From positions 358,328-422,327 of the forward strand of contig NW_003131853.1 of NCBI RefSeq assembly GCF_000003605.2: a stretch of 64,000 nt of DNA, in the 5' to 3' direction. Each line of letters opens with the position of its first letter. Position 1 is the first letter of the stretch. The stretch is from Saccoglossus kowalevskii. Its lineage: Eukaryota; Hemichordata; Enteropneusta; Harrimaniidae. The position numbers and the translations under genes are program-made. Below, piece by piece: positions 14,980-37,884 of this stretch. Under the pieces are notes generated by a model. It saw only the letters and a program-made list of their open reading frames with translations, was not told the DNA's origin and did not search any database.

Positions 14980-15681
14980 GGCATTTAATTCTTATGGAAG
15001 TCGTGAAACACACACGCAAGATCGTACTGAATTTGCATTGCCTAATTATGATAGGGATGACACACATCTCGCAAACAACAAGAAGAGGGACATCAAGTTT
15101 AAATCTAGTGATGGTATGAAAGATTTGAAAGAGAAATCGTTCATTGAGATAACGCGTAACTTTGGGAAGAGTACTACAACCCACGGAATACCAAGAATAT
15201 TCCAGTCATCGAGCTATCTCGGTAGTTGCGTATGGGCTCTGATATTCTTCACTTCGTGTGGCTGTTTTATTTGGCAAGCAACTACACTCATTTTACAGTA
15301 TATGGAATATGGCGTCACTGTTAAGGTTCGGAAAACATGCATTTAATTGTTCACACCTGTAATTGCATTATATGAAACACATTGGTGATTTCTAAGCTCT
15401 AAGAAACAATCGAATTTACTGTTGTCTCGTCTTCAAGTTAGCCCATTTATATCGGTATGACGCGTGTAATATATAGATTGCCAATATGAACGACTCATCT
15501 CAAATGTGTGCTAACAGTAATTGTAACATTTTATTGCAGATTGACGTTGTTACAGAGAAGAGTTTACTGTTTCCAAGTGTAACAGTTTGCAATACTAACA
15601 AATTGCGGCGATCAGCAATCATGGAATCTACCTACAAAGACATCTTGATTGTGGATGATGACATAGTCAACCCGTATTATG
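14980..15681 (+). other. Channel N-terminus, HG motif, TM1 and first palm strand
   Basis: Two exons. The first encodes a polar cytosolic tail, then a segment around [11 protein letters not shown] that is the conserved His-Gly gating motif of DEG/ENaC channels, then a hydrophobic stretch ([16 protein letters not shown]) that is TM1. The second encodes [15 protein letters not shown], matching the FPAVTICN signature that opens the extracellular palm in ENaC and ASIC. Exon 1 starts after a CTTCTGTAG acceptor. The only in-frame ATG in the exon is at 15116, just before KDLKEKS; initiation there would still leave a plausible short N-terminus. Confidence 0.85.
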
Positions 15682-18600
15682 GTCAGTATATACGTATCAT
15701 TGCTAACGAAACCAGCCATCAAACCACTATTATGCTTTCTCTTTCTCCGTCATGATCAGAAAACCCATTTTATTGTAATAACTATGAAACCTAGTATAAT
15801 ATTAATGTGGAAGGGATATACTACTTTATATTATTCTTACAGTTCCCTGTTTGCAGAGTGATTTTGAATGTGACAACAGTGTTTTATGCGTAAAACTGTA
15901 TCTGGTGTGTGATGGTGTGAACAATTGCCAGGACATGAGCGATGAAGCTAATTGTACCTATGGTATGTACCTAAATTATGTAAATATATTCCTCATTTCA
16001 ACTATCGCTATGTAGCATGTGGATATTTCAAAGCCATAATTGTACAACGTTATGATAAAATCTCATACAACCATCCAGTAACACGTTACTGGATCGTTGT
16101 ATGATATTTTATTGAAAAATATTGTCTTCAGTAATTATCGTAGCTATGATTTACTCCAGTTTTCTCTGTTTTAGTGTACCTTACATTCTCATCGCGTACT
16201 TTTATAACTGTCACTTTTTACAGGTGACTGTGGCGATAATCAGTTTAAATGCACTGCTGGTGGTGATAAGGGCATTTGTATCGATGAAGACTTTGTATGT
16301 GACAGGAATAAAGATTGCTATGATGGATCAGACGAGGATGACTGCGGTAAGTATACCTAAATTTGTTAATACTTTATTTGGAGGTTGGCCATGGTAGTAT
16401 AAAAGAATATACATGTTCTATTCAACAGAATGTAAATCCAGGGAATTCAAATGTAAAAGTAAAGGTGGATGTATCGGGAAAGATAAATTCTGTGATGGTA
16501 ATTTAGACTGCACGGATGGCACTGACGAAGACGAGTGCGGTAAGTTATACCAACCCATGTCAGTCACAGTATTACTATATACTATATTGAATTTGCTTCA
16601 TATCACATTTAGAAAACATGGTTTCTGCGTGGTACGTTGGTTTAGGATTAAAGTTAATTTGGAATCCCGTATCCAAATAGTAGATACATGGAATTATATG
16701 AATAAAATAAAATTGTATGCTCATATATTTTACAATATCATTATCTTATACATATGGCTAAATATCGATAATACTTTTATGTATACTATATTATAATTAT
16801 ACATCTGGCACCAAAAACAATAAAATTTACCCGTCCGTAAAACACCATATGGAAGCGTTAGAAAGTTCAAATGCTTTCCCTATTTGGAATGTTTAAAAAA
16901 ATAGATAGCCAAGAACTGAAGAATATTTACTATCTGCATGATAATGCATAAATTATCTTCAGTTATATAATTATACAACAACGCCACCAAATACACTTGA
17001 TATTCATTACATTCATTTTAATCAGTAAATATTTAGTCCTTGTAATTGCTTACAAATATTAGTTGAATGAGTGTAAGTTGCGGACATTTATAAAGTTTTT
17101 CTTACTCCCCCACAATAGTTTACATTTTCACTTAGAATTGGCATAATCAGGTATGCCGGTTCCAGTTCTAAGATTCAATTGATAAGAACTATCGCTGATT
17201 TCCAGAGCTGGACAAAGTCTCTTCTCCTTTGAAATTTGATCACACGAATAAAGCAGTATCTTACGATTGCAGTCATAAAATCTTAGCTTATGGTGGGTGA
17301 AATCTACTAGAATTCCAACGTGTAGGCCAGCAGGAAACTGGGAGCGTGGGCAGCTATCAATTGCTGACGCAGCGCTGATAACGTGTTGTTTATTCTTGTG
17401 GGCTACATACCAGTTTCCACCATTTGACGGAAGTCTCAGCGCCCATGATGAGCCGTCGCTACCTAGACAAAGATCTCTGTTGCAATTCTGTTTAGCAAGT
17501 CCTATTGCAATATCTCCACGATAGACTGATGCATCACGATCCGTATAGTGTGAAAGGCTTTCCCCATGCTGCTTTTCTGCAACCTGAGTGGTGACCTCCC
17601 AGTAATGGACACCTGTTGCTAGGACTACATCTGCCAGAACGGATAACGCCCGTCCATGAAACCGACCCGTACTGGCTTTCCCTTCTTCTTGCATAACCCA
17701 AAATCCACGTGGCCTGGGCTGATATATGACAGATCGTCCTGCACTTATGATAACCAGATCTTCATGAGCTGTCTCCGGATCAAGTCGAAATGTCATAGCT
17801 GTGGGACAAAATACAGTATTTAAAGCGGGAGGGTTGTCACCTGCGCACGCGCGGGAATTGAGTCCCATGCGACGATAACAACACACGCTAAAAATGCAAA
17901 GGCTCATGGGTAGACGCTTGTTTGTAAACAATGACACGCTATGGCCAGCTGGCGCATGCGCAGGTGACGACTCTCCCGCTTTAAATTTAAATTTAAATCC
18001 AACGCGTATATTGTGTTACTGGGTGTGAGATCAACCAAGAAAATAAATTCACGATCTTTATTGTGTGTTGAAACTGTTGTCAAGTGATACTAGTTATATT
18101 TTTGTATGACTATGCGGATTTAGGGGGAGGCGCGCCAGGCCCAAACAATCTCTTCGGCCATGTGATGAGGAGATTCAATAGTAGTAGCACGCTTTACCCC
18201 GCCCATAGTTACCAAATTTCTTTATCCGCCAGTGATGACAATATATAAATAAATGCACCTATCTGTTTACATCATGGCAGTAAGAATATAATTGAAACAC
18301 AGTGATGATTGCACCGAATATATATACCAAAATAGGATTGGGTGGAGGAAGGTGAGAATCGAGTAAGACTTGACTTATGGTACCTTGTGGTCCTGTCCTT
18401 GCAGGAAATACATTACTCCATCCAGAGGCACCAGCTTTATTCCGAACACGTGCTTTAAAGAAATACTCCGAATCAAATGCCAAGTCTTCTTTGACTAAGC
18501 GGTATTCGTCCGTTTCCCTTTCATCGCCTTTACCACATTCTATCTTGAAGTAATCCCACAATCCACCACTCTTACAGACACCCATATCATAAGAGTCGAC

Positions 18601-21600
18601 GATACATGGTGCGTGTTTTATTGATAGATGTACGGTGTTCCGTACTTCAATGTGTCCTCCCATCCGTGGCTTTTCAGGAGCTAATAGCAGCCCGTGACAG
18701 AAAACATATTTCATTAATCATATTTCGACTTAAAGGTATTAAAAACGTATAATTTTGTTTAAATAAATAATAGATCGCCTACTCATACGTGATTTCAGTA
18801 TTAAAAGTCCGTGCATATTTTAAAGTGGAATATTTATTTATTATTATTTGTCATTAATTTCGAATTCTGGTAAATTTACTAATATACAAATATTACCTTT
18901 TATGGTTAGTAAGTCCATTTTTTGTATAATTTGTTTCTCATACTCTAAATTGAGGATCACGTGACTAAAATCATCCGCTGTGTTCGGCTGAAGCTGGGGA
19001 CACGAATCTATCGCACAATTCAACCTAGCAGAACAAAATAAATACTTAAAAGTTAAACATATCAGTAAGTTGATGTGTGATGTTATTGTAGTATATTATA
19101 TTTACATGTGAGTAAATAAACATGTTCTATTCCGACAGTCGTAGTACGATTTAATTTTAATAGAAATAACTTAAAGAAATTTAATTAACATGTTTAATTA
19201 TAAAACTTTTTTTAACACAATTGCATTATGCATTACCTGTCGTCCAATGATGCTCCCGTCTGTTGAAATGAACAAAAAAAAAACAATTTTAATTTCTGGA
19301 ACAAAATCAGTAAAGATGGGTGTACGTGCCTTGGTTAAACTAACGTCGGCTTAACTGCTTTGTCAGTAACCAAAATTAAATCAAAACTAAAGAATTCTTT
19401 AGTTCCCTCATGTACGCCATGTGTATACATAATTCATGCAACACAGCCTTATTGGTTATGATCAAAAAACGTACAATAAGAAAAAAGGAAAATGACCACT
19501 GCTAGAACACGCCCCTCAAAATAAATCAGTCAGTATGGTCCATAATGAACATTAATTCAGCAAAACATCGGTAATCACAATGATTGGTAATTACAACAAG
19601 AGGTTGCGGTCAATGACCCTTCATTGTTTGTCATTTGTATAATCATAGCAAGGATACTAAATTTACCAATAGCAGCGCAGCGGGTACCTCCTCTTTCAAC
19701 ACTTCTCTGGTGTATTGTATCAATCCCGCCGTGTTATGCAGTTTATCTTGACAGGCCATATTCTGTTGCTTTAATAATAATAGTTTCCTCGCCGTTTCTT
19801 CAGATATCTTTGTGTGCATAACTCTCTCCCTCTGTTCCAGCATGGCTTTAATCACTGCAAATTCTTCTGATATTCTTTGATGCATTACAGCTGCATTGGT
19901 CTGTGGTAAAACACAGAAATCCATTTTGAATTAAACAAAGTATACCCCATCTTAATCTTTGAGGGGGTACTGCATAGACAATTTCTATATGTTTGTGCGA
20001 CGCTGCCTGAATTATTATTTGTTTTCTTCTGATATATATCCGTAATACTGTTATATGACATTGATATATTCATGTTGTGCTATATACCTGTATAGATTCA
20101 CCTTTTCTTTCTAGCGTTATTATAAATTCGTTAACATTCGCCATCTTAGATACAAGCTGAGCCAAGTTACTACTAAGTGTCTCCTATAAAATGAACATTG
20201 ACAATTACATGTTAATCAATATATTGTATGTATAGTTGTATGATCATTCGCCATGCTAGCATTGGCCTATTGCATTTGCATGCAAATTATATTGACTTTT
20301 TCTCAGCCCTGACGCCATACCCGGCTCGCGATATGATTGTTGTTATATGCACCTGTGCCCAAATACAGAAAACAGCATTGTATATTGGTGTTGTTGCTAC
20401 ACACTCACAGAATTGAATGAAATAAATAGATATTTTATGATTGGACATTTTACATAAATTACAATGCGGCATTTACTATCATATTAGTACTCCCTAGTAT
20501 GTGTTTATCTTCCGGGGATTTATTTGCAAAGTTTAAAAAGCACTCTAAATCATATACTAGTACCTTCATGAGTTTGTATGACGTCTTTAATTCCGCTACC
20601 TGGTGACCTTTATGACCCCCAAATCTATCACACAGATAGCAGACCGGTGTCTTGCACTGCACGCAGTACATCTTAATGAGCTCGTCGTCATGTTCGGGAC
20701 AGTACACGTCCTTGCGCTTTGGGTTACGGGTAGCTTTCACCAGTTTGTGTTTGGAAAACACACCTTTACTCGGGTGATACGTGCGTAAACACCGGTCACA
20801 GTAGGATACGCCGCACTGTATACATGTTTTACTGGCCTTAGCACCCCCACTGTCAGCACAGACGTCACACGCGACACCTTTAACCTTGACTGGCCTCCCG
20901 TCTGTCGACTTTTCTTCCTTGTACCTTTCAATTATATTGTCTAGTAAAAAGTTCCTGGGTAGACCGTCTATCCCTCTTTTATCCAGTTCCACTGTAAAGC
21001 GACATGACGGGCAGACGAGACGTGAGTGTCCAGATTTCTGATTGGAGTTGCGCTTCAGAACATCGGGCAAACAGCTTCGACAAAAACTGTGCGCACAAGG
21101 CAACAAGAGTGGGTCTGTATAAAGCTCCATGCACACTGCACACGATAGTTCTCGTTCCAGTGAGTCGCCCATTTTTTGTTGAATATGTACGTGACAACTG
21201 AAAAAAGGCTCAGTTCACTAACAGAGCAGTAAATATGTAGCTGGAGTGGAAATGAACTCTAAAATCAGCGCCAAGTTATAGAGTGTATTTAACCACCGTG
21301 TACGAACCGGGGAAACATCATATAACGGAATACAAAGGGCTATTATGGCCTAGATCCATGCTATTCACGAAATGCAGACAATACCAATTCCAGTGTTTCC
21401 TATTATTGGTTTCAAACCACTTGCTATTGTCATGTCGATGGGGTCAAACCATCGCTATTGTTACCTGTGGAAATAAGGAGAAGTTCTGGAGGTTGTCCCG
21501 TACAACTGCCAATCATCGTTGGGTGAAGCGTTTTGTACTTTTTATATAAGAGACTGTGTGATTCGATGGCGACGTCAAAACAACGTGCGTGTTGACAATA

Positions 21601-24600
21601 CATTCTGTTCAGCTAATTAGATTTGTTCTGACGTCACTGTTGTAACAATAAGTATATCAATTACTTTAATGTTATGCTTGCAAGTTTCTAAATTACAACT
21701 GTGTTATATGTGTGTGTATGTTGACAACATGGTAACCAAGTAATTATATACTACTATATCACTGAACGCGGCACGACACTTATTTTAGTTATTTTAACGG
21801 TACATGTGGGATGGGTGGTTGCACTCAAATTATGGATACCGACCTGAGACACGTGAATTAATTGCCCCTACCACTCGTCATAATACAATCTGAAACCGTG
21901 ACCTCTCTTTAATATATGCCAGTATGTCGCCACCTGCTAAGAATCTATTTAGTAAGTGCAATGGTACGCAAGGCTGGGTCTGTATAGCATTAGAAACTAC
22001 CAGGCGTACATGACAAACACAACCACACACACCGTATGTACTCACATTACACAATTATTTGTTATTATGTTTTATTCTCCCTATAGCCCACGAATAATAA
22101 CAATTGGCATTTACGGGCAGTTTTATTATTTTTTACTGTAGGCATACAACTACGTGTTTAAGAATTCTGGGATTTTCAGTCCCGTAATAATGCTCAGCTT
22201 AGCGCTGGAGTTAGTAAGGTCAAAGGCTGGGCACAAGTCAGTAACTTTGGCATTTACTGCATAAGAAAGCAGTAGTTTTTCTTTATAGAAAAATTCCAGT
22301 GCTCTCCGCTGATAGTCCAACAAAATGCCAAATCGACGCGTTGAATTGCACTCTAAGTTGTGTTTAATCCTTGTACACCTGTCATTGTGATAGCCACGGG
22401 CAGTGATGCCCATTATTTCAAGGCACCATGACGACTTATTTGTTCCAAGTTGTTGGTTTCTGTGACAGTCTGCCGTAGCAACGCCAATGGCGTATGACGT
22501 TGCACCCGATTGGCTGGCCTCCACTTCCCAGTAATGCGCGTCGTCAGATAATATCACATCACCCAGAATGCAATGCACGTTTCGTACGAACCTCATTCCT
22601 AGTTGTATTTTCTCGCTTACTTTCATTTTTTTGTGGATGTAATCTTCCCTTCTTTTGACAGTTTTACCATCCTCCGATAAGAGCAACGCCGGATGTGCTG
22701 TCTCTTCGTTTAAAATGAATTCAGTTGCTAAAAACGAAAAAAAATAATGCTAATCAGCAATGACCAAATTGGAGTTTCAAATGTAGAAGTCAACAGAATC
22801 TCATATATGTTCAAGTAACTTTTTCTTACCTACTGTTTTAGTTTTCACTGCAACAGTTTGTGACCATGGTGAGGTGCCAGCTACATTGGTCATACACACA
22901 CAGAAATAGTATTCACAGTCGTAATCAAGATTGCCAAGATGGATATGATCTTCTAAACTCGCCCCTGATTGGTCTGCCATAACCTCCCATCTCATTGTCA
23001 TCCATTGACCGTTAATTGGTTGATAAGCCACGTCATACCATTTGACGTCACAGGGTTCATGGTTGACAGATAACATAACACCATTTCGGTTCATAATTTC
23101 TGTCTTCGTGATGATGGGAACTTTGGGTTCTAAAGCAAACGAATGTTATTATTCAACATATTAAATTTAATTATAATTGTCTATTCAAATTGAATTATTT
23201 TCTTATATTGAATATAATTTCTATGCATTCCGATCATTCTTCAGAAAGTCGAGGCTTTCACTAACCACGATACAGTTTTCAATGTCAAACAACTGCTAGA
23301 CTGTTTTTAACTTTGTTACCTGTAATTTTTCTTGCTTGCATTTTTTTAATCCCTCGTATTGCTGATTTGACATCGATTATGATGTGGTCAAAGGTCAAGA
23401 AGGCCTCGTTAAGTTGGAGATTTGGACTGTTTGACAACTCCGATGTTAGTCTAGTATGCAAACATATGCGAGGAAATTTAAATACGAATACGATTGGTCA
23501 GTTATATATATGGTGATTATACGTGAAAAATAGCTTAAATTAAACGTGACAGTTACACTATGTATTATCAGTAATTAACCGGAAATGACGTGACAAGTGA
23601 CATCATAGTCACCCTATAGCACCAGTGTACAGTCGAAGGTAATATATCTGTATCTCTTCAGTTGTAACTACGAAATTACGGGATATTAATTCGTGGGTTT
23701 CCCAAGAGATTTCATTAAAAAATCCAATTTGTTTCATGCTATATATGAAATAAAATTGCTGCGAACCTTACCTGTCATCCAGAGACGCAGCCGACTGTAA
23801 TAAAACATAATTGTTAATGTCTGTTATAACTTTAGTATAATTGTTTAACATAATGGCATGTGCATATTTCGAGGGAGTTCCAATTTAGCAACTATTCTAT
23901 ATGTTTACGTTGCAACGACAAGGAACATGGAATAGTCGTTAAATGAACAAGATGCCAGTGTTCACCGTATACATTATTCATTGTGGTTGTGTTATTAACA
24001 TTAGTATTTTACCGTAAGAAATATTGACGTTTCATTGTTGTTTTCGAGAACTACTTGGGCGAACTGTACCAACCCCGATAGGCGGCGCTGTTTATCTTGA
24101 CACATCGTCATCTTTTGTTGGATTTCATACAGTTTATTAGTCATGTCCTTTGCGATGACCTCATGCATCTCCTGCTCTTTTTGGTTTATCGTCGCGTGGA
24201 GGCGCTGACAAGAATTCGACACTTGTTCTTTCAGACTGGCTGCATCTTCCTACAAAAACACACAGGTGGTAATTTCTTAAATAAGTTCTTTCTGTAGACT
24301 GTAAAATGGAAATTTAAATTTACGTTACGTTAGAAGAGCAACTCACCTGAATCGAATCTCGTCCATTTGACAGAGCTATGAGAAAATCGTCAATATCGCT
24401 CTGCAGTCCAATCATTGTAGCCACGTTATCGCTCATCTGTTCCTGTGGATATAATGACATTTTTTGATGACTCGATTGCATAACGTTTTGCATACGTGAT
24501 CTAACAGTTAGTATAAACACTGGAATGATATGGCGAAGGTGATTTAAAATAAATAGCACTTTTTACATAAATAGACGATATAATTCATGCCACTTATCCA

Positions 24601-27600
24601 TCATTGATATTATCAATTATCGTCACGATCATTGTGTAATGAAATGAACCACTTGTCAGGTTGTAATGATCGGAGCCGTCATTTCCATGACGTGTTTATT
24701 CATTTATACAATCTCTGTATACCTTGATAGTCTTAAAAGCGCTATGTGCCTCACGGACATGGTGTCCTTTATGCTCCCCAAATCGCTCACATATGAAACA
24801 TATCGGTATTCGACAGTCATCGCAGTACAGTTTTAACCCTTCGCCATTGTGTACAAAACACTGTAATGGCTGGATGCCATACGTGCGTTGTACAGGACCA
24901 TCATGAGATAGCGGTACCAGCTGATGGGTGTTAAATACACCTTTGTTTGGGTGACACATATTTCTACAGAGGTCACAGTATGTGACTTGACACTGGACAC
25001 ACTTTGTTATAGCAGGCTTATCATCACATATTTCACATGTCTGCCGTACTATGGACGTTTCTTGTTGTTTGTATCGGCTAACGATACTATCAAGAAGGAA
25101 GTTACGGACCAGTCCATTTAGTCCCGTCTCACTGCGCAGTATAACTTCCCGTCTACAAGTCGGACAGTTTATAACAATTCCATCTGAATCTTTAGAATCT
25201 GTTGGTACATCGCACGGTTCGTCGGCCTCTGGTCTACAATCACCACCATCGTCGCCGTGGCATGTGCTTGTAGCTGTGGCGGCAAATCCATTGGATTTCG
25301 CTATCAAATCTTCCAAACATTTTCGACAGAACGTGTGAGCACATGGCAAAAGAAGAGGTTCGTTGTACAACTCCATGCATATTGTACATGAAAGCTCTCT
25401 CTCCATAGGATTTTCCATCGCAATCCCCCAAACAAATTTAAAAGTTATAAGTCTAACCGTTTTATGTTAGATGTCACAAAAAGCGTCGCTCAATAACAAT
25501 CTCGTTAATCCAGACGGTTAACAGGTGGTTTAATATTTAACGTTGAGTTCGAATTGCTCCCTCTGGCGACAATATGCTATATTGATATTTTGTGTTGTCT
25601 GTCCATAGATAAGTACAACCCTACTGATTGTCAGGGTCTGTCATGTGACGAAGACAAATGTATACCCTCAAGCTGGAAATGTGATTCATTCGCTGATTGC
25701 GCTGATCGAAGTGACGAAAAAGATTGTGATACGGACGCAACAGGTATATACCACACTTACGCCCCTATTTCTTGTTCGTGAGTTAACGCTATTTTGCCAC
25801 GGATACGTTTTACACCTGAATTTAAATACCATCAATCTTCCAAGAATTTCATTAACCCCGTATACTGTTTTCCGGAATCCAAATCTTCGAGAGAGACCAT
25901 TTAGTCATAAATATATGTACAGCATATATTTTCAATTCTTCTTCATTTTTTGTCACCGGGACTCACTACAGAAAAATGGTAACGCGAATATATATTTCTT
26001 GTGATTTATTATCATTTGTTCACAGCGCTTGTTATTTGCACGTCATTTGAATTTCTATGCGATGCAACAAATTGCATACCAGAGTACTGGGTGTGTGATG
26101 GTTTCAGTGACTGTGGAGATTCCACCGACGAGGCGAATTGTGGCACTGGAACTGGCGATGGAACAGATGGTAACGTATTGAATGTAAAATTGTATACTTG
26201 TAATCATGTGACTCGTTTTAAATTGTCCAGCGCCGATGTCATTTTCGGTCACTATTTTGCTGGTTCGGTCGCCTTCATCATGGTGCTGATGTGCGTATTG
26301 AATTGTGGGATACAATGGTTTGTAAAACAATGTACTTCCTTCGTATGATTGCTCGTTATAACCTGATTAAAGCGCAGTGGTCGCCGCGCAGCGCGTGTTC
26401 GAATTTCATGTAAATAGACAATGCATTTTACATGCGTTGTATACGTCGCTATGAGTCCCATATCGAACAGGACGCGACACGACGACTGCCGCCCTTTAAT
26501 TTGAACTGAGACTTCACTGTTTAGTTGCGTATTTACGATTGGTAGATAGTTTTGCATTCAAGCTATTTTTTTTTCAGATTCGGGAAACGATTCTGTTTAT
26601 ATCAATGCACACACAGTCATGGTTACTAGAGGAACTTCTAGCAACCGTGACACAATTCACAGTTCCTCGACAATTATGTGCAATATACACATATATAATG
26701 AAATTATGTTATGATACATACTTACTGTTTTATTTGTTTTTACTGTTTTGTATTAATATACCAGAGATATTTTTGATGATTTATATTCTCTGCCGTACTA
26801 TGCAGCGTTTATATTTGCAATTTCAGGAACTTGTGGTCAAAGTGAATTTCTGTGTGATACCAACAATTGTATTCCTGATTTTTGGGTATGTGATAATTGG
26901 GATGACTGTATAGACGGCACGGACGAAGCAAACTGCAGTAAGTATCAATGAGTATTATTTCTATATTCACCATATCTCCAGTACCATTTGTACCATAATT
27001 CACATTTTAGATATTAAACTTGAATACTCTCGTTCATTGCGAATCAAATGTATTATGAACATTATAATTTCAATCAAATAAATTGTTTGTAAATCCTATT
27101 GCCCTCTTGACTTGCATAATTAATATATTAATACACGTGTAACACGTTTTATGGTACCACATTTACAAGTAATTGCATATTCTAAACTAAATTCGTATCA
27201 TTGATACAGTTATACTAGGTTTGTACTAGTGTAGACCTTCCAAGTACATGAGTGTGTAGTTCAGTGCACTGTCTGTGTATAGGAATTGTGCTTGTAAGTG
27301 CATTTGTATTTGGAATATTTTGCGCCGACAGCAATTTAGAGTAGAAATTGTCTCACCCCTTATCGTCACCACATTCCTCTCAATTATTCTCCACTCCATG
27401 GTCATGGAAGACAGTGTTTTATTGAAATTACTATAGCATATGCTAATGCATACATTGACTTAACAGCTGGATGCGGCTCTGGATTTGAGTGTGGTGACGG
27501 TTATTGTATTGTCAGTGGATGGATATGTGATGACTTCATAGACTGTGTAGATGGTACTGATGAACTGGCAGAAAACTGTCATTTACGAGGTAATGCAATG

Positions 27601-30600
27601 TCTTCTAAATCCAGGTACATGCCAACAATGTCTTCTTTGACCGAGGTTCGAATTACCCACAATCCCACGTTTTCATATTGTTCATTGTGTTATTCCGTAC
27701 ATTCATATGCATGTTTCATTTCACGGGCAGTCAGTACGAAAGAAACCAAATGGCGGCTTACAAAAATAAATCTGCATAGTGAGATCAAGTAAAACTAAAT
27801 GCACCGTCAACACAATGGCTTACATTGGCTTACTCCCGGCAGTCATTTGAGCCATTTGTTTATTCCTGTAAATATAGTTCCACCAACATTGTAAAGCATA
27901 GCCTAGTAGTAGGATGTGGAATGGGAAAAAAGTTAGAGGTTTTCTGATGAAAATGATGACCCAAAATGTGTCAGTCACAATCACGGTAGTGTGTATTGAA
28001 AGCGAGGCAGTTTAATTTGTGAAATACGCGAAGACTTTAAGTAAACGCACACTTCCGGGGTTCACTAGTCACCTAGCAACCATGGGGTCCATAAATTATG
28101 TTTTAAAATGGGTAACAGGTCCTTGTTTGACAATTTTAGAATCCAAAGTTGTGTGGATATACTAGTAATGTGGGTAATGCCACATCGATTTAACCAGATT
28201 TTCTGATGCTGCAAAACCTGTATAATCAATTTAGAGTGGGTTTTCCTTGAAAATTTGCTTCAATGAGTGGGTTTTTCGATGAATTTAAGCTCCCGATTCG
28301 TGATTTTCACCAAAATTTGGTGCCTCACATTCTCGTATATAAATAATACAACGATTCTCCCTGGATCCCTTTCAGACAACACGTTTTTACTAATAGTACA
28401 CTTGCATATATGTATGTTATTGATAAGTAGAATAATATTGGATTAAACACATTGATCCACATTTTTAGATTCTTCGTCAACGTCAGTATCATCAGCATCG
28501 GAATTGGAATCGGATATTGATTTGTTTTGCTGTGCGGATTCTCTAGAATGCCTCCCGATATCAGCCGTATGTGACACATTTGATGACTGTTCAGATGGGA
28601 GCGATGAAATTAACTGTGATTCAAATGAAGCAACGACGAAATCAACCCCATCAACTGCTGCTCCAGATCCACCAGGTTATTCACTTCATTCCTTCACTTT
28701 AGTTTTTCAATAACGCCATTCAACTCAAATAAACTTATGATTCGCCTGGACGCGAAACTACTGAAGTGAATTATGTGAATCCATGCACTTCGGAATACTA
28801 TTGTAGAGCGCTGGCGAATGTAATTTAAACACAGACAAATAGGAAGCCGAAACGATCGCCAACGTGCGGTTGCGCTGGAAATCTGAAAAATTGAAAGTTT
28901 ATTATATTGAACGAATCAGATATATCATGTCATAGTCCCTATGACACCAATACTGCTATATGATTAAACTCGGAGTGTAACTTTAATTTATATATTTATA
29001 TATCATTGTAATTAGCTCCACCTAATTGCACGGAGAGTGAGTTTGCCTGTGCATCTGGTCAATGCATACATCTATATGGCGAATGCAATGGTGTTGTTGA
29101 CTGTGATGATTCTACTGACGAGGTGCCAGAACAATGCATGTACAGATACCAAGGTAACCTTCTCGATTTACAGATAAATGTTCATGTTAGTTTTTGTGTG
29201 ATGCTAAACAAAGAAAACTCACTGTCTCTATTGTTTACTTACTTACACAATCTCTGCCGAGAGCAAAATATAAACTGCGACTGATACTTTGTTCGATAAC
29301 ATATTTTGCAGTGATGAGAACTTATTATGTGTCAATGCACATATTGAATAACGTTTGCAACACCTTTAATACTCGCAATAAATTCAGCTAACGCCCATTC
29401 TTCCAAGCCCCGACCGCTTACTGCTGTCGGTGGCGTGGTTGAGGGTGCTTAGAGAATGTCATACATCCATCATGACATCGAAATTAATGTAGCACAACGA
29501 AGATAAAGAGAATGAGATATTCAGTCGACTAACTGTGCATGTTATTTGTAACTAAACATGTACAAATATGTTTTTTCAGAGGGAAGCGTGAATTTGTTTC
29601 CCCAGGGATGGAATATTCCCTATTTGATATTAACAGACGACGAAAACATTTATGAAGATTTCAAAAATAACTTTTTTTCGGATCATGGATTCGATCGCGT
29701 GAAAGGTGAAAATCCACCGGATTGGTCTGGATTTCAGACTTTCAGCTCCAGCCCTGACTACAGCGACATGGAAGACGTCCTGAAGTTGTCTACTGAAGAA
29801 ATTGCACACTTGGGTCATCAATTCGATGATTTCATCTTGCAGTGTACATTTGATCAGAAAAGCTGTGATATGAAGTATGTGTTTTATTTGTATCCGCCAC
29901 TCCTATATGGTTCAAGTTCACCCATCACCAAGAGAGTCTGGTTTCCCATTTTTTTTATTTTTCAATTGCACAGCGGGAATTTGTTAACAACATACTAAGA
30001 TTCATATTTTTTATTTTTAAATACATGTTCACATTTTTGAACGCCAGAGCTTCAATTATGGGTTCAAACATGTCAAGCGTGCCACAATGTTACGTTTCAA
30101 ATAATCTCAAAATGCAAAACGTGCGAGTAAAAAAATTAAGTCCCACGTAACTTGGTATTTAAAGAAATGGCAAACGTCAAAAATGAAACATATTTCAAAC
30201 ATATGAAGTATAACAATGCCAAACATGCAAGTCACAAATGTAAACGTTTTAAAAATACCATATGTGCGAGTATAAGAAGCTCAAAGTTGGTTTTCAACAA
30301 TAATAAATATAAAAGCCATTAACGTAACTGTTTCAACAAACGGGCTATTTCGAAAGTAGGAGTCAAAATTATATAATACTACATTATAGTGGCATATTTG
30401 ATTCTCGTTTTTTTGTTTTCAAACTGGCACTCTATGTATTGACAATATTTTTTTTTCAATTCTTTAGTGACTTCATTACAATCCAGGACGACAAATATGG
30501 CAATTGCTTTCAATTTAATCATGGTAGAAACTCAACAGGCCGGTATGCTAGCAGAACAGGTGCAAAATATGGTAGGTATAGCTGAGATTAACGTACAGCA

Positions 30601-33600
30601 TGAGCTGAAAACATAAAACATTCCTGTAATGTACACCCACCACTTACTGCGGAAGTCAAGCAAGTGTTCAAAACGTGATAAAAAAGACGCCGCCATCGGT
30701 GCGCGTGGCCCAATCAATTGACTAGCTGTCAGCCTAACTTGTCAAACAAAACATCGACGCGCCAAACTGAAAAGGTTGACGCGCCAAAATAAAAATGTTA
30801 AACCACGCCCACTGCTTCTGAGCACATCAAACTCGTCAGCTGACTACTAAACATGGCCGGTAACGTGAGTAACACGGGCAGAAAATTTAAACGAGGTGCT
30901 GAAACATCGGGGCATTCGTAAAATATGGCAGCGATCCGTTCATTGTAGATCAAGCAAGGGCAACAGAGGTTTTTACCATAAGCTAGGTGATGGTGACTTG
31001 GAGCTGATCGAAACTTTGAAAAGATTACAACCATCTATAACGTATCGTGCTATTGCAGACCATATCAATGAGCATGGTGAAGTTGTAGAAAATGTTTCAA
31101 TCACTACTATTTCGCGGACAGTTCGAACCCGATTGTCAGGCGGCCGATGGACTTACAAAACACTAACACCGGTAGCCTTGGAGAAATTCACGGACGCTAA
31201 CATAGCATATTGCGATGAATATGTAAATTTTCTGCACACCCAAGCCCCAAATACACCCGTATTACCCCCCCCCCCCCGAGCTAAACCCGGTCGAATTTGT
31301 ATCTGGGAAACTTAAGAAAACACTGAATATAACGCGCTAGCCAGAATTGATCTTCCCTTGCGATACTGGAAGCATTACGAGAAATCAAACCATCCGATGT
31401 GCTGGGATATTACCGAGCTGTTGGGTTCTTAAATATCAATGCTGACGCTTATGAACTAAAAAAATGTTCCTGGTCACAATGTATAGATGACAAAAATAAT
31501 TAATGTCAGCAATGTATTTTTCACAAAACGACTGCAATCCAAACTGCCACATATGGGGACTAAATAACGATATATTGAAATATTTTGAACTAATAACTTT
31601 ATTGATCTTGGTGTAAAAATGCACTGTTGTACAACACTTTACAATGTATTTTGTTTATGCTTTGTCATATTTGTAAGTTTATTGTGTTATTGCTCTGCCA
31701 GCAAACAATTCTCTTTGGGTTTCAAATTGACAATTTTAGTTTCAACTGAAAACATACTTATTCATTTTTTTCAAAACGCTCTTATCATAACTATTTGCCA
31801 TCAGCACAAATATGTTACCCCTAAAGTTACAAAATAATAGCAAATAACACGAACTCTCAATTATGTTAACTTTATGCAAACAAAATGTCCATTCCCTGCC
31901 AACAATTTTAGTAACAAACTCACCAATTACTGTAACTATGAGATACAACTACGTATACGTAAAGTTGTGTCCAAAATTTAGAAAAAATATATTTTCTTGT
32001 GTCAGCTCAATTTATTTGGGTTTTTTTTCATCAATTTAGATGAATCAACGAGAAAAACTCAAAAATAATAAACATAATGATACTATATTTTACCATGAAA
32101 ACAAAATATAGTCAGTATTCACAAGTCACCTAACATCCGAGCGGATTCATATAATTTTAATAAATTATTAGTTTCATCTCCTGGATCATCTTGTATCCCA
32201 GTGTGCTGGTTATTGTCAACTCAATGCCAGTAGTGGTACTGTTTTCCGACGCTTGTTTAGTTTCCTTATTTACAGTATTTGAACTGCCAAATTTCCTATG
32301 GTTGTCAATATTTGTAGGCTGAAAGGGGACGATAAGTCATTCTCGNNNNNNNNNNNNNNNNNNNNNNNNNNNNNNNNNNNNNNNNNNNNNNNNNNNNNNN
32401 NNNNNNNNNNNNNNNNNNNNNNNNNNNNNNNNNNNNNNNNNNNNNNNNNNNNNNNNNNNNNNNNNNNNNNNNNNNNNNNNNNNNNNNNNNNNNNNNNNNN
32501 NNNNNNNNNNNNNNNNNNNNNNNNNNNNNNNNNNNNNNNNNNNNNNNNNNNNNNNNNNNNNNNNNNNNNNNNNNNNNNNNNNNNNNNNNNNNNNNNNNNN
32601 NNNNNNNNNNNNNNNNNNNNNNNNNNNNNNNNNNNNNNNNNNNNNNNNNNNNNNNNNNNNNNNNNNNNNNNNNNNNNNNNNNNNNNNNNNNNNNNNNNNN
32701 NNNNNNNNNNNNNNNNNNNNNNNNNNNNNNNNNNNNNNNNNNNNNNNNNNNNNNNNNNNNNNNNNNNNNNNNNNNNNNNNNNNNNNNNNNNNNNNNNNNN
32801 NNNNNNNNNNNNNNNNNNNNNNNNNNNNNNNNNNNNNNNNNNNNNNNNNNNNNNNNNNNNNNNNNNNNNNNNNNNNNNNNNNNNNNNNNNNNNNNNNNNN
32901 NNNNNNNNNNNNNNNNNNNNNNNNNNNNNNNNNNNNNNNNNNNNNNNNNNNNNNNNNNNNNNNNNNNNNNNNNNNNNNNNNNNNNNNNNNNNNNNNNNNN
33001 NNNNNNNNNNNNNNNNNNNNNNNNNNNNNNNNNNNNNNNNNNNNNNNNNNNNNNNNNNNNNNNNNNNNNNNNNNNNNNNNNNNNNNNNNNNNNNNNNNNN
33101 NNNNNNNNNNNNNNNNNNNNNNNNNNNNNNNNNNNNNNNNNNNNNNNNNNNNNNNNNNNNNNNNNNNNNNNNNNNNNNNNNNNNNNNNNNNNNNNNNNNN
33201 NNNNNNNNNNNNNNNNNNNNNNNNNNNNNNNNNNNNNNNNNNNNNNNNNNNNNNNNNNNNNNNNNNNNNNNNNNNNNNNNNNNNNNNNNNNNNNNNNNNN
33301 NNNNNTTTTCGGTTCTATCGAAGTTATTAATTAAGATAAATTTTTCGAATAATGAAATCCCTGTATATTGTATTTATAATTTGTTTCAGTTAAATTTAAA
33401 CTTTGAGGGTTGCAAGTATTACTTTTAATTAATGTATGTATATGCATGTATGTATTAACTGTCTACGTGCAGCTTTCCATGAGGGTTGTTCAGAACCTGG
33501 TCATTTCATTGAATAAACCCTTTAATGTCGAATTCTCAATTTTGTGAGGTATGTTGATATTGTGGATGAGTAATGAGAACTGCCGAATATACATGTTTTA

Positions 33601-36600
33601 CATATTTACAAAATTAAAATGCAATCTAAATGGTAATGATTTGCGCACCATTTAACTGAATATCATTCACAAACGCTTTCTATCTTTAATGATAGGTTTG
33701 AAATTGACTCTATTCACCGAGCAATACGAATACATTAGCATTTATGGTCGTGATTCTGGGGTACGTGTGGCTATTCAACCTCTCTTCGTCCCGGCATTCC
33801 CCGAGGATGAAGGAGTCACGATAAGACCTGGATCTATATCATCTATCGGCATAAGAGAGGTAAATTATGTTGATATTAATCATACACTCAGATCAACATT
33901 CAACTTCGTATTGATTAAATGTTTGGTATATTTACATACAGCTTAGTATAGAATGTAAGATCTTAAGACATTGAAATCAAGACATTATTTAAATCAAAGG
34001 TATGAACCCGAAATAAAATGGTACTTATTTTCTGTATATGACTCCAAATTGCACGTCAACTGAAATGATATAATTGGAGTTTTGATATACTTGCGTGATT
34101 CAGAGCCTATTATAGCAATATCATTGTGGTACTCACTTCGCATGTACCTTGCCGCATTTCGTTGACACCTCCATATACTTATCTTCGTTTTGGCATTACC
34201 AGTACTGTTCTCATTCCCATATGTGTATCGATGTATTCGATATTACCAGCAGCGTTCATTATATTCCAGAACGTTATTCATCGTAAACCACATCCCTATG
34301 GAAACTGCACACAGAATGCCGAGTTTGATTCCATGTATGGAAACGATTTCAAGTATACGAAATTGGTAAGATTTAAAAAGTTTGAAAAATGCTATTTATG
34401 GAAATTAGAGTATATGGTCTCTGTGTAACAAAATTGCCTGGGTTAGCATGGTTTGCATTATCATCACCATCATACATTATATGCAACCTGGTTGAGCTGT
34501 GGGTTGGAAAGATGTTTTCATCTGTGTCCCCCCATAATCCAGGAAATTGTTGTCAAGGCTGGTTTCTTGTTTCTGATTCTAGCATACTAGTAGTCACCGG
34601 CCCAGACCTGTGTATAACAAATTGTAAGGGCAACATAAACATGTTTTTTGGTCTTGCAATGACACACTACACTTGCCCGTCGCATGCGTACTATTTATAA
34701 ATGTATGTTTTATGGCCCGTAACAGAACAAGTTTATATTACAACACTATTCTAGTCAAAAGAATTGTGTCCCCAACGCATTATGTTCAATAATAATGACG
34801 GTTCTTTATGTCTTCAAATGCGATTTAAGAAAATTGTTTAATTATGTATATGTGTATGTATGAATATAATCTGATAATTGAAAAAAAAAATCCCACAAAT
34901 ACTCAGTAGAACACCAAGTGAATTGCGAGAATCCCATAATGCATCTCATTTTTTACGTACACAATGATTGGCAATAAAATTATGACGTAAACATAAAACT
35001 TTTAACTTATACCCAGTCTCACTTGGTGTGACATAGTTTAATTGAAGAGCCAATGAGGGCGAATATTTTTGAATATATTTAGATAATTCTGTTTCATAAA
35101 TTATTCGGTAGGAACATATGTATTGCAGAAAATGTCGCAGTATTTGTTCGATAAATTGAAGTACAATTCTCACGCATCATTGACGTATCTATACGAACTG
35201 GTATTCGATGCGCATGAGTGAAAATGTTTCCATTATTGCCTAACACTTGCTCTTTTTATGATAAATCATGACATTATATTGTTTTTAATCAGAATGCATT
35301 TTCAAACAATTTCAAATTATTTAAACCTACTGAAAGTTATCCTCATTGCTTTTTATTTTGATATAGGCGTGTGAGTCAACCTGCTTGCAGCATCAGATAT
35401 TAAAACACTGTCACTGTGTTGATACTCATCTCATTCAGGCACCAAGATGTCATCTGCTTAATCGGACGCAAGGTAAGGTATATATCACGTAAGTTGTTAG
35501 CGCAATGCATTGTGGTCATTGTGGTTTCCTGTCGACGCAAATCTCGCAGCCTGATTGCACACAGATGACAATAACCAACAACTTTCAACACGCTCGACAT
35601 TTTAATGTACCAAAACGCACCCCGTTTAATAAAATTAATTTCATTTCATATTTTAATTATCGTCATATAAATAAATACGAGTCTAAATGTGTCCTAAACA
35701 GACTCTTTATGAACAAGTCATGACTTGTTATTTGTTTGTTATTATTTATTTCCAGATGTGTGTAAGCAATTGATGTACTTTTTTTACAAAGCTGATCTCC
35801 TGCCATGTGATTGCAAGCAGTCATGCGAGTGAGTACATGCTTACTAGGCGTGCATGAATACAACACCCGAACCCATCCCAAGATACGGTCGCTTGGACTG
35901 TATAGGTACTTTTTTCGAGTCCTGAAATCATGTAATCGAAAACACTCCACGTCTACTTTCCACTTGATATACAAAGCATGCCATTATGATTCGTGACTGG
36001 TCGCAGGTGGCTTTCAATGTGACATAATTTGAATACAAACACACAAATCGGGTAACCTCAACTATTATGTGTGTTATCACTCTTTGGATTGTAGCACACA
36101 AGTCCCCGCGTGTATGCTGATGTATGCGAGTTTTACAAACTATGATGGCAGCGGTGTTAGACGCCGTCGAAAGGAAGCATAGCCAACAACCCGGTACCAT
36201 GATCCGCACTGCATCGCAGGGGCTGATCCAGCAAAATGTATTGGCTTAAATTTTACGGAGCGTAAATCGCAGAGAAGCTATGCGTTATCCAGATGCATTT
36301 TCATGCGTTGGGGGGGGGGGGGCATGGCCCCCTGGCCCCCCTCTGGATCCGCCACTGTTGCATCGTGATTCTGGTGTACTACAAATACGGCATTTGAAGC
36401 AACCATGAATCAACAAAGCTAAAAGTGAAACTACGCAGCTTCGCTGACGTCATAAACATCGACTATAATCAATTGAGCATATAATTTAACGCAATGCTAC
36501 GTTTTCTTTTCAGTGAAAAGTGGTACGAAATAACGCTGTCGCAATCACTGTGGCCATCAGACAGATATTTAGTAAGTATATGTTGACATTTTATGAGTGA

Positions 36601-37884
36601 GACGCGGGATGAATAGTTAAAGGAACACGTGATATAAATAAGTTCTGTATAAGGTGCTGCTCTTTTTTTATACGGTTTAAAACAATAACACGAAACTCTT
36701 GTGTAAATTGGATTGTAAAAGGTCATGTGAGTATAAAATGTTCATATATCATTATTACGCATTTCTTTCTCGCGGAGACCAAAAATATCCAAACGTTAAA
36801 TTAAATTACAAAAAAATGAAATAAAAGAAGACGTGGCCGATATGGGGATCGAACCCACGACCTCAGCGTTATTAGCACCGCGCTCTAACCAACTGAGCTA
36901 ACCGGCCGTCTTGACATAGCTTGTATTTTTAACGCTCAAATCATCTGGGCATCAATCACTACTGATCTGTTTATATTATTTTAATATTTCTGTTTTCATT
37001 AGAAACACCTTCTCAAAAACATCCATGGTATTAACGACAAAACGAGGAATATCAACGACGAAAAAGCTGTCAGGTGAGTGCGCCCTCTGTGGCTAGTATG
37101 CTTAAATTACAGGCTAGACTTGTACTTTGTTTCATGAACCTTTGTGTTAAACGGCCTGGGACAAAGTACGAGTCTAACCACAGACAGCGGATCGAATGCG
37201 CAATTATTCAAATCACAATCCCTCTAGAGGGACTGTGTTCAAAACAAGACTAAGGACGAACACGGTCTCTTATGAGAAAATAGTAACTGGTAATGTTCGT
37301 CAAACTACTGTTACGTATCATTTTGATTGACTGAGAATTTTAATCAATTTCAGCTCTAACTTGGTTCGCTTAGAGGTCTACTTTGAAGAGCTGAACTACC
37401 AAGACGTGTCCGAGATTCCTGCATATGGTGTAAGTATACAATACTCGATATATTTGGCGACTACCTGGGATACACCGTAACACTGGCAATTAATCATACC
37501 CCACAATAGCATTGTCTATTGCCAATCAGACAGTACATCGCAAGATACACCTCGGCAATCATATTCCTCGGCCAACCAGTAAGCGGGGTGCACTGGGTGA
37601 TATCACACTTATGTTCAAATCACAATTTAGAAAGTCGTTAATTGTTTTATAACTCTGTAATATTCTTAATACATTACACGGGTGGTATAGTTCAAATTAT
37701 TAAAACAAGGGCGACTGCGATCTCTGTATATCTTTGATAATTTTATCTTATTTTACAGCGTTCGGATTTATTAAGTGACGTCGGAGGCAGTCTAGGGTTG
37801 TATATCGGTCTGTCTATCATCACAGTCTGCGAGTTCCTGCATTATATCTCACAAATTATTAAGTTATTTTTTCGAAGATTATGA
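14980..37884 (+). CDS. DEG/ENaC-family sodium channel with nine LDLa modules
   Basis: Spliced gene; coding exons are 14980-15325, 15540-15681, 15843-15962, 16224-16346, 16429-16539, 25609-25743, 26026-26169, 26827-26937, 27467-27589, 28469-28675, 29016-29153, 29580-29874, 30468-30571, 33696-33859, 34270-34365, 35367-35472, 35756-35828, 36514-36571, 37003-37073, 37354-37429 and 37759-37884. Phases agree throughout and give about 955 residues. Seen: cytosolic HG motif (THGIPRIF), TM1, FPSVTVCN after TM1, nine LDLa modules, [26 protein letters not shown], the cysteine-rich thumb, and TM2 with [11 protein letters not shown]. The family forms trimeric amiloride-sensitive Na+ channels in the plasma membrane. 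The true start is uncertain: an upstream exon, or the ATG at 15116. The donors after 15325 (GTTCGG) and 28675 (GTTATT) are weak. The gap at 32346-33305 lies in an intron; reading resumes without missing sequence. A nested TRIM pair occupies the 16540-25608 intron. Confidence 0.9.
15843..16539 (+). other. LDLa modules 1-3 of the channel
   Basis: Three exons (15843-15962, 16224-16346, 16429-16539) each encode one LDL-receptor class A module, each starting and ending in phase 1, so each is a symmetric, shuffle-ready unit. Each has six cysteines and the acidic calcium cage: [24 protein letters not shown]. In LDL receptors these modules bind Ca2+ and basic ligands; that role here is inference. Confidence 0.88.
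17128..21172 (-). CDS. MID1-like TRIM E3 ligase, copy A
   Basis: Exons on the minus strand: 21172-20564, 20183-20088, 19900-19688, 19259-19237, 19024-18897, 18680-18384 and 17798-17128; all phases agree and give 678 residues, close to vertebrate MID1. RING ligands are C11, C14, C26, H28, C31, C34, C54 and C57; two B-boxes follow (first from CDVCADSG, second from CPEHDDE), then coiled coil, a COS-like segment, one FN3 domain and a PRY-SPRY domain ending in [13 protein letters not shown]-type TRIMs are microtubule-associated ubiquitin ligases; that role here is inferred. Start: first ATG, directly before the RING ([11 protein letters not shown]). It lies in an intron of the channel gene, antisense, about 1 kb downstream of copy B in its own direction. 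An ATTAAA at 17032-17027 may be its poly-A signal. Confidence 0.9.
17819..17985. mobile_element. MITE with ~34-bp terminal inverted repeats
   Basis: The arm at 17819-17852 (TTTAAAGCGGGAG, then a block containing GTCACCTGCGCACGCGC) is matched by the reverse complement of 17952-17985 with about three differences, all transitions. The element is about 167 bp and has no coding capacity. Ends reading TTAA-AGCGGG / CCCGCT-TTAA would fit a TTAA target duplication as in piggyBac-like elements, but TTTAAA could also be part of the repeat. It lies in the last intron of TRIM copy A, 20 bases before the SPRY exon. Confidence 0.75.
22150..25418 (-). CDS. MID1-like TRIM E3 ligase, copy B
   Basis: Minus-strand exons: 25418-24723, 24442-24347, 24249-24013, 23794-23772, 23450-23320, 23129-22830 and 22727-22150, 686 residues, phases consistent. 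Same order as copy A: RING, two B-boxes, coiled coil, COS-like segment, FN3, SPRY. Exon lengths pair with copy A as 696/609, 96/96, 237/213, 23/23, 131/128, 300/297 and 578/671, so the two genes are tandem duplicates, diverged mainly in RING loop and SPRY. The RING carries a ~35-residue Asp/Cys-rich insert between its sixth and seventh metal ligands that copy A lacks. The SPRY is shorter, ending in [12 protein letters not shown]. The start ATG precedes [13 protein letters not shown]. An AATAAA on this strand at 22076-22071 is a likely poly-A signal. Confidence 0.9.
25609..29153 (+). other. LDLa modules 4-9 of the channel
   Basis: Six phase-1 exons (25609-25743, 26026-26169, 26827-26937, 27467-27589, 28469-28675, 29016-29153) continue the LDLa array with cages such as [32 protein letters not shown]. 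Modules 5 and 6 are close to each other ([18 protein letters not shown] against [18 protein letters not shown]), suggesting recent exon duplication. Exon 28469-28675 adds Ser/Thr/Pro-rich linkers on both sides of its module, likely O-glycosylated spacers. The array ends directly before the channel core resumes at 29580. Confidence 0.87.
30640..31440 (+). mobile_element. Internally deleted Tc1/mariner-type transposon
   Basis: A broken ORF (30896-31315) encodes a helix-turn-helix N-terminal half ([14 protein letters not shown], then [15 protein letters not shown]) typical of Tc1/IS630-type transposases. It is joined through a poly-C run at 31265-31277 to a different frame encoding [17 protein letters not shown], the conserved end of the DDE domain. 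The middle, with two catalytic acidic residues, is missing, so no active transposase is made. I could not identify terminal inverted repeats, so the ends are approximate. It lies in a channel intron just left of the assembly gap. Confidence 0.65.
32346..33305. other. Assembly gap (960 N)
   Basis: Run of N within the channel intron between exons 30468-30571 and 33696-33859. The flanking exons join in phase and match adjacent parts of the ASC domain, so no coding exon need be missing. Confidence 0.99.
36217..36357. mobile_element. hAT-like MITE with 8-bp target duplication
   Basis: The left end CAGGGGCTGATCCAG and right end CTGGATCCGCCACTG are inverted repeats, 13 of 15 matching. The flanks CTGCATCG (36209-36216) and TTGCATCG (36358-36365) match at 7 of 8 positions, an 8-bp target duplication typical of the hAT superfamily. 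The 141-bp interior is non-coding and holds a G run followed by C-rich sequence that can fold back. It lies in the channel intron before exon 36514-36571. Confidence 0.72.
36834..36907 (-). tRNA. tRNA-Ile (anticodon AAT)
   Basis: The 74-base minus-strand sequence folds as a complete cloverleaf. The acceptor stem GGCCGGT pairs with ATCGGCC (one G-T pair), followed by discriminator A with no encoded CCA. The D arm contains TAGCTCAGTTGGTTAGA, the anticodon loop is CTAATAA (anticodon AAT), and the T arm contains GGTTCGATCC. There is no intron. It closely resembles animal tRNA-Ile-AAT. It lies antisense in a channel intron and is presumably transcribed by pol III from its internal A and B boxes. 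Confidence 0.95.

Follow-up and report, generated by a model that had tools for sequence, protein, structure and literature searches.

A predicted DEG/ENaC channel subunit of Saccoglossus kowalevskii with nine LDLa modules in its finger, and a family of related genes in the same genome

The 64,000-nucleotide stretch of Saccoglossus kowalevskii DNA analysed here (the window) codes for one predicted DEG/ENaC channel subunit with an array of nine LDLa modules in its finger, past the alpha1 region, and at the level of sequence this gene belongs to a large family of LDLa-bearing DEG/ENaC genes in the genome. We propose, with a probability of about 0.4, that the array is a Ca2+-stabilised extracellular arm in the finger whose variable modules would hold a basic protein or peptide ligand and shift the helices of the finger, with the family forming a receptor repertoire.

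The gene model, with exons picked by hand, has 21 exons on the plus strand between positions 14980 and 37884 (Table 1), all 20 introns being GT-AG, and translates into a 970-aa predicted protein with a single terminal stop. Pfam finds an ASC core (7e-81, 273 bits against a cut-off of 23.6) split into two stretches (profile 1-87, then 128-455), together with nine Ldl_recept_a stretches (together 5e-64). The sequence-only reading had described a complete channel core interrupted by nine in-phase LDLa exons, and both parts are borne out: the HG motif (THGIPRIF), TM1, FPSVTVCN, the thumb cysteines, and TM2 with a GLS filter are all in place (the HG motif, TM1, TM2, and filter judged by eye and alignment), and the nine modules join in frame through phase-1 introns. 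Fourteen ectodomain Cys lie outside the array, the count for the seven disulphides of DEG/ENaC channels, for which conserved bridges 1-7 are described in the part of PMC6197857 available to us. The core aligns with ASIC2, ENaC, and FaNaC chains, the best solved relatives being ASIC2 6l6p, ENaC 6wth, and FaNaC 7yvb. Translation may start at an in-frame ATG, either 14936 or 15115, or in an exon further upstream that splices to 14980. We note that two TRIM-type genes lie on the opposite strand within the 9-kb intron (16540-25608).

Table 1. Exons of the predicted LDLa-bearing channel gene, in window positions
Feature	Coordinates	Strand	Evidence
Cytosolic N-terminus, HG motif, TM1	14980..15325	+	Pfam ASC 2.4e-20 jointly with next exon; splice sites
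First palm strand FPSVTVCN and finger alpha1 region	15540..15681	+	Pfam, splice sites, alignment
LDLa module 1, phase 1-1, first-module type common to paralogs	15843..15962	+	Pfam 6.8e-12
LDLa module 2, phase 1-1	16224..16346	+	Splice model, LDLa profile
LDLa module 3, phase 1-1	16429..16539	+	Splice model, LDLa profile
LDLa module 4, Trp two residues ahead of fourth Cys	25609..25743	+	Splice model, LDLa profile
LDLa module 5, Trp-bearing; model resembles CD320, LDLR LA5, LRP CR7	26026..26169	+	Profile, Foldseek
LDLa module 6, Trp-bearing, closest to module 5	26827..26937	+	Splice model, LDLa profile
LDLa module 7, Trp-bearing	27467..27589	+	Pfam 1e-8
LDLa module 8, least typical; Ser/Thr-rich linkers either side	28469..28675	+	Pfam 4.6e-6
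LDLa module 9	29016..29153	+	Pfam 1.4e-10
Channel core resumes; putative alpha2/alpha3 side of finger, conserved in paralogs	29580..29874	+	Splice model, alignment
Exon with core strands	30468..30571	+	Splice model, alignment
Palm/beta-ball exon	33696..33859	+	Splice model, alignment
Palm to thumb exon	34270..34365	+	Splice model, alignment
Thumb cysteine exon 1	35367..35472	+	Splice model, alignment
Thumb cysteine exon 2	35756..35828	+	Splice model, alignment
Thumb/palm return exon	36514..36571	+	Splice model, alignment
Post-thumb exon (KHLLKNIHG...)	37003..37073	+	Splice model, alignment
Last palm strand	37354..37429	+	Splice model, alignment
TM2, GLS filter, stop	37759..37884	+	Splice model, alignment

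The 404-aa array most likely sits after finger helix alpha1 and before alpha2, the slot that GRIP occupies in ENaC (PMC6197857, in part). The earlier assignment to the finger/GRIP position agrees with the alignment, but the array does not follow the first palm strand directly; it starts 29 residues past FPSVTVCN, beyond the alpha1 region. The core restarts at 29580, an exon start, with a finger stretch conserved in paralogs, 69 residues upstream of the motif at which it had been taken to resume. Even within FaNaCs the residues of the finger are difficult to align, according to the accessible part of PMC11026163, and the finger exon predicted by itself gives an unusable model (pLDDT 39.7). All ten consecutive introns from the beta1 exon to the finger exon are in phase 1, versus two of ten elsewhere in the gene (Fisher one-sided p = 3.6e-4), and the phase 1-1 modules are compatible with exon shuffling, the origin suggested from the sequence at the outset.

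Across the 572-Mb genome, 31 intervals, counting that of the window, run from a beta1 exon to a finger exon, and 30 of them contain coding-strand LDLa modules; the same order thus recurs in 29/30 paralogous intervals. Of the 16 unpaired beta1 exons, 7 are also followed by LDLa. Among 150 scored LDLa matches in the genome, 31 fall inside beta1-finger intervals on the coding strand and none on the opposite strand, with 0.05 expected by area. The eleven intervals that were read through carry 2 to 10 modules each, none on the opposite strand; an LDLa profile made from the modules other than LA8 and run across the window's interval likewise gives nine modules on the plus strand and none on the minus strand. 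Six DEG/ENaC loci without the insert have no LDLa within 1.5 kb. The first module has LA1 as its best match in nine of ten paralogs read through, so an insert probably predates the family; the exception is C4225 (two modules), whose start differs from the common first module. Most of these paralogs have positional counterparts of modules 1 and 2, so an array of several modules is probably ancestral, with expansion mainly in the variable middle block. Growth by duplication, as first supposed, is seen locally, LA5 and LA6 being the most similar pair in the array, but those counterparts lead us to reject growth purely by duplication. The finger exon is alike among paralogs, while module number and kind vary widely. 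Elsewhere in the genome, the cox1 locus has TGA at positions expected to be Trp and carries genes on both strands.

The array is about the same size as the remaining ectodomain (406 aa) and is rich in Cys (54, or 9 x 6) and acidic residues (96, versus 20 basic). All nine modules have six Cys and calcium-site acidic residues, with Asn at one calcium site each in LA1 and LA9. In LA8 the first two Cys are adjacent, and this module scores weakest of the nine with a profile made from the other eight (Pfam 27.2 bits against a cut-off of 24.1). Calcium-site residues are similarly kept across the eleven arrays, with D/N after the fourth Cys in 61/61 modules and DE in 60/61. A predicted model of LA5 has CD320 as its best Foldseek match (8.4e-4), with LDLR LA5 and LRP CR7 at E 4-5e-3. 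In LA4 to LA7 (4/9 modules) the second residue ahead of the fourth Cys is a Trp, which we take to be the lysine-holding Trp of LDL receptors. The same position is Trp in five of eight modules of the paralog C1573 and in 10/61 modules over the eleven arrays (any aromatic, 15/61), so lysine-type binding would not be general across the family. For LRP1 to bind RAP, the conserved Trp and the doublets next to it are important, as reported in the portion of PMC8239462 available.

The window channel shares the whole core of ASIC, ENaC, and FaNaC (PF00858), including the HG motif, TM1, FPSVTVCN, finger, palm, thumb cysteines, and a GxS filter in TM2, but these channels are without the 404-aa array. 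Conversely, no channel is present among the solved chains that the array matches (25 distinct sequences, E up to 1e-10). The His of proton-gated ASIC1, presumably His73, aligns with Val here. The same numbering appears in the available part of PMC10507113. The ENaC GRIP is likewise inserted between alpha1 and alpha2, the position here being by alignment, but it is a small beta-strand domain with protease sites in alpha and gamma, and furin-type sites in this insert would be expected of an ENaC with proteolytic gating, whereas the nine disulphide-rich modules, and indeed all 970 residues of the predicted protein, have no RXXR furin-type site; the ENaC-like proteolytic gating raised by the sequence-only reading is thus unsupported. 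Tandem LDLa modules, calcium residues, and the Trp (here in LA4-LA7) are shared with LDLR, VLDLR, LRP1/2, and CD320, although in those the array is part of an endocytic receptor ectodomain rather than an insert in a channel, and Pfam, at E up to 1, gives ASC and Ldl_recept_a only over the whole predicted protein, with no EGF or YWTD propeller. RXFP1/2 (a GPCR) and Neto1/2 (a kainate-receptor auxiliary subunit) also place LDLa on a signalling membrane protein, but as one module, terminal or in the auxiliary subunit, in contrast to an internal array of a pore-forming subunit. Polycystin-1 and GRL101, a snail receptor rich in LDLa modules, may be relatives in kind. Literature searches, judged from their listings, gave no paper on an LDLa-array DEG/ENaC architecture, and a search for EGF-bearing or tethered DEG/ENaCs gave nothing. 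Both kinds of words occur in PMC8199346 and PMC6371548, which in the parts available concern other proteins, and 'LDL' has zero occurrences in the main text of six DEG/ENaC papers (PMC9822975, PMC10507113, PMC11750451, PMC9234716, PMC10148893, and PMC9949801).

There is precedent for LDLa modules acting on signalling proteins, in RXFP1 (PMC4837482) and in the action of Neto2 on kainate receptors (PMC12580572), and the FMRFamide pocket is formed by finger alpha1-alpha3, which move in gating (PMC11026163), each according to the sections of these papers available to us. As had been suggested, gating may depend on a ligand, Ca2+, or matrix. In the mechanism that we propose, the array, presumably between alpha1 and alpha2, would be a Ca2+-stabilised docking arm fastened to the finger by its conserved first modules, and the variable middle modules (here the Trp-bearing LA4-LA7) would take up a basic protein or peptide as ligand. 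The finger helices of FMRFamide-gated channels close around the agonist; since the arm is attached to the finger at both ends, binding could pull or reorient these helices and shift the thumb, wrist, and pore, and the differing module sets of paralogs would confer differing ligand preferences. A bolder and doubtful extension is that these dozens of genes (counting the window's, 37 beta1 exons have evidence of LDLa) form an 'ionotropic LDL-receptor-like' repertoire of trimeric sodium channels, in which shuffled arrays in the GRIP slot recognise different extracellular ligands and the turnover of modules diversifies the receptors, much as happens in olfactory or recognition gene families.

LDLa modules elsewhere also serve as spacers or adhesion elements. 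The array could hook the channel to matrix or a neighbouring cell and convey force to the finger helices, making a mechanoreceptor with array length as slack; tension would reach the finger since both array ends are anchored there, and the variable length (2 to 10 modules) and the linkers flanking LA8 are in keeping with this. Yet the classical LDLa ligands are soluble lipoproteins and proteins, and we regard a tether as rather unlikely, even though tethering is a standing model for DEG/ENaC mechanosensors (PMC10148893, in part) and this corner is among the matrix tether sites proposed in the accessible text of PMC11026163. It is improbable that the arrays chiefly help subunits to pair, fold, or keep apart with little effect on gating: the free variation of modules beside a similar finger exon would fit, as would the contact of the Neto2 module with channel subunits (PMC12580572, in part), but the calcium-site residues, which hardly any module has lost, and the first module shared by nine of ten paralogs point to more than bulk. 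A GRIP-like auto-inhibitory lid, keeping the finger-thumb cleft shut until displaced or cleaved, is slightly less probable again, as the array has no furin-type site and Ca2+-bound LDLa modules resist proteolysis, against which stand its strongly acidic character beside a less acidic core and its alignment to the GRIP slot (PMC6197857, in part). That the LDLa exons are a separate gene within a channel intron is highly improbable and is rejected, despite the nested TRIM-type genes, since phase is continuous at all ten junctions and the arrangement recurs on the coding strand in paralogs. The single gene originally read here, with one frame over 21 exons, is strengthened by that recurrence, and a motif scan of the plus strand of 16540-25608 for a second channel/LDLa set found chance HG triplets only.

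The presence of LDLa modules at one place in many sister genes points to a class of channels, so far little studied, in which a modular arm outside the cell could control opening. The DEG/ENaC finger is strongly divergent, and how protons, peptides, proteases, and force gain entry through it is a standing question; binding arrays of known chemistry in the finger, in a natural series of 2 to 10 modules, are suited to asking whether finger inserts set the stimulus. Such channels would add pore-forming subunits to endocytosis and GPCRs as settings in which LDLa modules act, and could serve as a route to ligand-controlled sodium channels.

Channels carrying an LDLa array are a family in S. kowalevskii, and the window gene is not a singleton. 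The window (G000:C2340:358328-422327) belongs to a 572-Mb animal genome, and searches of this genome with the C-terminal and N-terminal parts of the channel gave at least 107 and at least 66 exon matches, respectively, among the best candidates scored. From these we typed 40 finger exons (where the channel core resumes after the array) and 47 beta1 exons (the first palm strand, FPSVTVCN, plus the alpha1 region), setting aside other exons, 16 TM1-only matches, an unclassified match on contig C1426, and loci where one match spans both beta1 and finger (contigs C2355 and C3473). Joining beta1 and finger exons that share a contig and strand and are no more than 60 kb apart yields 31 beta1-finger intervals including that of the window, ranging from 3.5 to 32 kb (median, 10.1 kb), with nine finger and 16 beta1 exons unpaired. 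Among the best 150 of 1,658 candidates in a genome-wide Pfam LDLa search, 31 fall within these intervals on the coding strand versus 0.05 expected by area, and none on the opposite strand; 17 of the 31 intervals carry at least one of these 150. Fetched DNA was also read with a profile built from eight window modules, which favors modules resembling those of the window; the window interval and ten others have coding-strand module counts of 9, 6, 6, 10, 4, 2, 3, 5, 8, 4, and 4 and opposite-strand counts of zero. Additional modules come from short reads downstream of other beta1 exons.

In total, 30 of the 31 intervals, 29 of them among the 30 paralogs, carry LDLa evidence; the exception, on C309, has no LDLa in the 2.2 of 11 kb read. 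Seven of the 16 unpaired beta1 exons also have a downstream module, six others have none in the 1.5 kb read, and the remaining three are unread. Uncollapsed haplotypes or very recent duplicates might account for some family members; two cross-contig pairs among the fetched loci L001 to L060 (C2730/C1313 and C1341/C3821) share >600 bases at ≥90% identity, and the count of 37 beta1 exons with LDLa evidence takes one member of each. The six loci with beta1 and finger in a single match (L001 to L006) have no LDLa within 1.5 kb, and one of these, L003, has two internal stops. A query with the first module alone finds 33 places in the genome, 24 of them downstream of a typed beta1 exon on the same strand within 12 kb, nine elsewhere, and none near a beta1 exon in the wrong position, so this module type occurs mostly, though not exclusively, in these channels.

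The window gene was assembled by hand from raw sequence as 21 plus-strand exons, with GT-AG sites at all 20 introns, a frame open throughout, and a single stop at its end. Counted from the in-frame ATG at 14936, the predicted protein has 970 residues; the true start may alternatively be at 15115 or in an exon further upstream. Pfam ASC matches it in two stretches (profile positions 1 to 87 and 128 to 455; 7e-81) and Ldl_recept_a in nine (5.1e-64). Among solved chains, the C-terminal core aligns with ASIC2 (6l6p; 1.4e-37), FaNaC (7yvb; 3.2e-36), and ENaC alpha and beta (6wth), and the N-terminal part with FaNaC1 and ASIC1. The array alone matches LRP2, VLDLR, LDLR, and their relatives, with no channel among 25 sequences matched at E ≤1e-10. 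It has 404 residues, with 54 cysteines and 96 acidic versus 20 basic residues, and the ectodomain without it has 406 residues and 14 cysteines. A 960-N assembly gap (32346-33305) lies in the intron between the exons at 30468 and 33696, and the ASIC2 and ENaC alignments call for no exon there.

The ASIC1 and ASIC2 alignments run from the HG motif through FPSVTVCN and the alpha1 region, stopping ~18 residues short of the array; 3' of the array, solved relatives align from STEEI onward and FaNaC from somewhat earlier. The core does resume after the array, as the sequence-only reading had it, but the finger exon (29580-29874) begins 69 residues ahead of the 12-residue stretch named there. Excerpts of one source place the ENaC GRIP domain between alpha1 and alpha2 (PMC6197857), and by alignment the array appears to share this slot, with helix boundaries that we infer. 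In ENaC this region controls gating through proteolysis; here, the lack of any RXXR site in the predicted protein is evidence against furin activation of the ENaC type. A valine aligns with the residue that we take to be His73 of ASIC1. The role of that histidine is treated in excerpts of PMC10507113.

All ten introns bounding or separating the LDLa exons are phase 1, in agreement with the phase 1-1 exons described earlier, compared with 2 of the 10 remaining introns (Fisher one-sided p = 3.6e-4). In seven paralogous loci, 26 of 32 LDLa exons are phase 1-1 by automatic best-scoring splice-site choice, a rough figure because in the window the same procedure detects eight of nine modules (LA8 is missed), picks a different donor for LA4, and calls seven as 1-1. 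With window modules numbered LA1 to LA9 from the 5' end, the best match of paralog module 1 is LA1 in 9 of 10 cases and that of module 2 is LA2 in 7 of 10; in reverse, modules 1 and 2 are best for LA1 and LA2, respectively, in 8 of 10 paralogs each. Positional counterparts of LA3 and LA9 are less frequent, and the closest pair inside the window array is LA5 and LA6. The proposed growth by duplication is thus supported by the LA5/LA6 likeness, but the LA1 and LA2 counterparts indicate that a multi-module insert is probably older than the family radiation, individual genes having probably expanded or replaced the array middle on their own. In a tree of 30 finger-exon sequences, deep support is low and the window gene is not firmly placed; its nearest finger exons among the listed matches, in a C2340 gene ~690 kb away and on C1573, are each 56% identical to it.

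All 61 modules of the eleven arrays have D or N directly after their fourth Cys (D in 48), 43 have D just ahead of their fifth, and 60 carry DE, as expected for calcium cages. Ten of the 61 have a Trp two positions N-terminal of the fourth Cys, presumably the lysine-holding position of LDL-receptor modules: LA4 to LA7, modules 4 to 8 of the C1573 array, and one module of the C2340 paralog. LDL-receptor modules are described, in excerpts of PMC8239462, as holding a ligand lysine by a conserved aromatic, best Trp, together with acidic residues, and RAP binding as needing the aromatic in adjacent module pairs. A predicted structure of LA5 built from the nine window modules (pLDDT 79.9) is most like CD320 (E, 8.4e-4), with LDLR LA5 and LRP CR7 also resembling it (E, 4-5e-3).

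Other features of the window
Feature	Position	Strand	Remarks
Two tandem TRIM-type genes	17131-25466	-	Inside LA3-LA4 intron; RING, B-box; SPRY
148-codon frame	30869-31312	+	Channel intron; weak, sub-cut-off match to HTH_32; may be transposase-like
tRNA-Ile (aat)	36833-36907	-	Within channel intron
Acyl-CoA synthetase-like frames	45600-51570	+	One weak AMP-binding match, below cut-off; no match in another frame scanned
Tandem repeat	49584-51268		22-bp unit, 75.6 copies
EGF-like frames in a row	54553-61255	-	Calcium-binding EGF in 2 of 3 frames scanned; probably one large gene
Tandem repeat	62301-64000		48-bp unit, 35 copies

In the TRIM-type pair, fn3 is matched in the first gene only and PRY is below cut-off in the second, and the 22-bp repeat precedes a late frame of the acyl-CoA synthetase-like stretch. 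Elsewhere in the genome, G000:C4670 (~35786-41390) has 26 of the best 150 of 1,658 LDLa matches, 25 of them within a single 1,735-codon open frame. The fetched locus L072 is a mitochondrial piece with tRNA-Leu, -Gln, and -Ala, in which cox1, with no AGR codon, is on the opposite strand to what we take to be nad1 and cox2.

Beyond the gene-model architecture, family, and residue conservation demonstrated here, the array could be read as a tether, a lid, or a spacer. We propose instead, by analogy with known systems, that it would be a docking arm through which a bound ligand would move the finger; its exact helix position is likewise only suggested by alignment. This is because the finger takes part in FaNaC1 gating (PMC11026163) and LDLa modules have precedents in RXFP1 (PMC4837482) and Neto2 (PMC12580572), as far as excerpts of these sources go; the absence of the Trp from most paralogous modules counts against a docking arm. 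We found no description of LDLa modules in a DEG/ENaC channel in the open-licence literature, including DEG/ENaC papers searched for 'LDL', and since the search covered that literature, predicted genes of the same kind may well be present in animal protein databases. The main new fact is an expanded family of LDLa-bearing DEG/ENaC channels.
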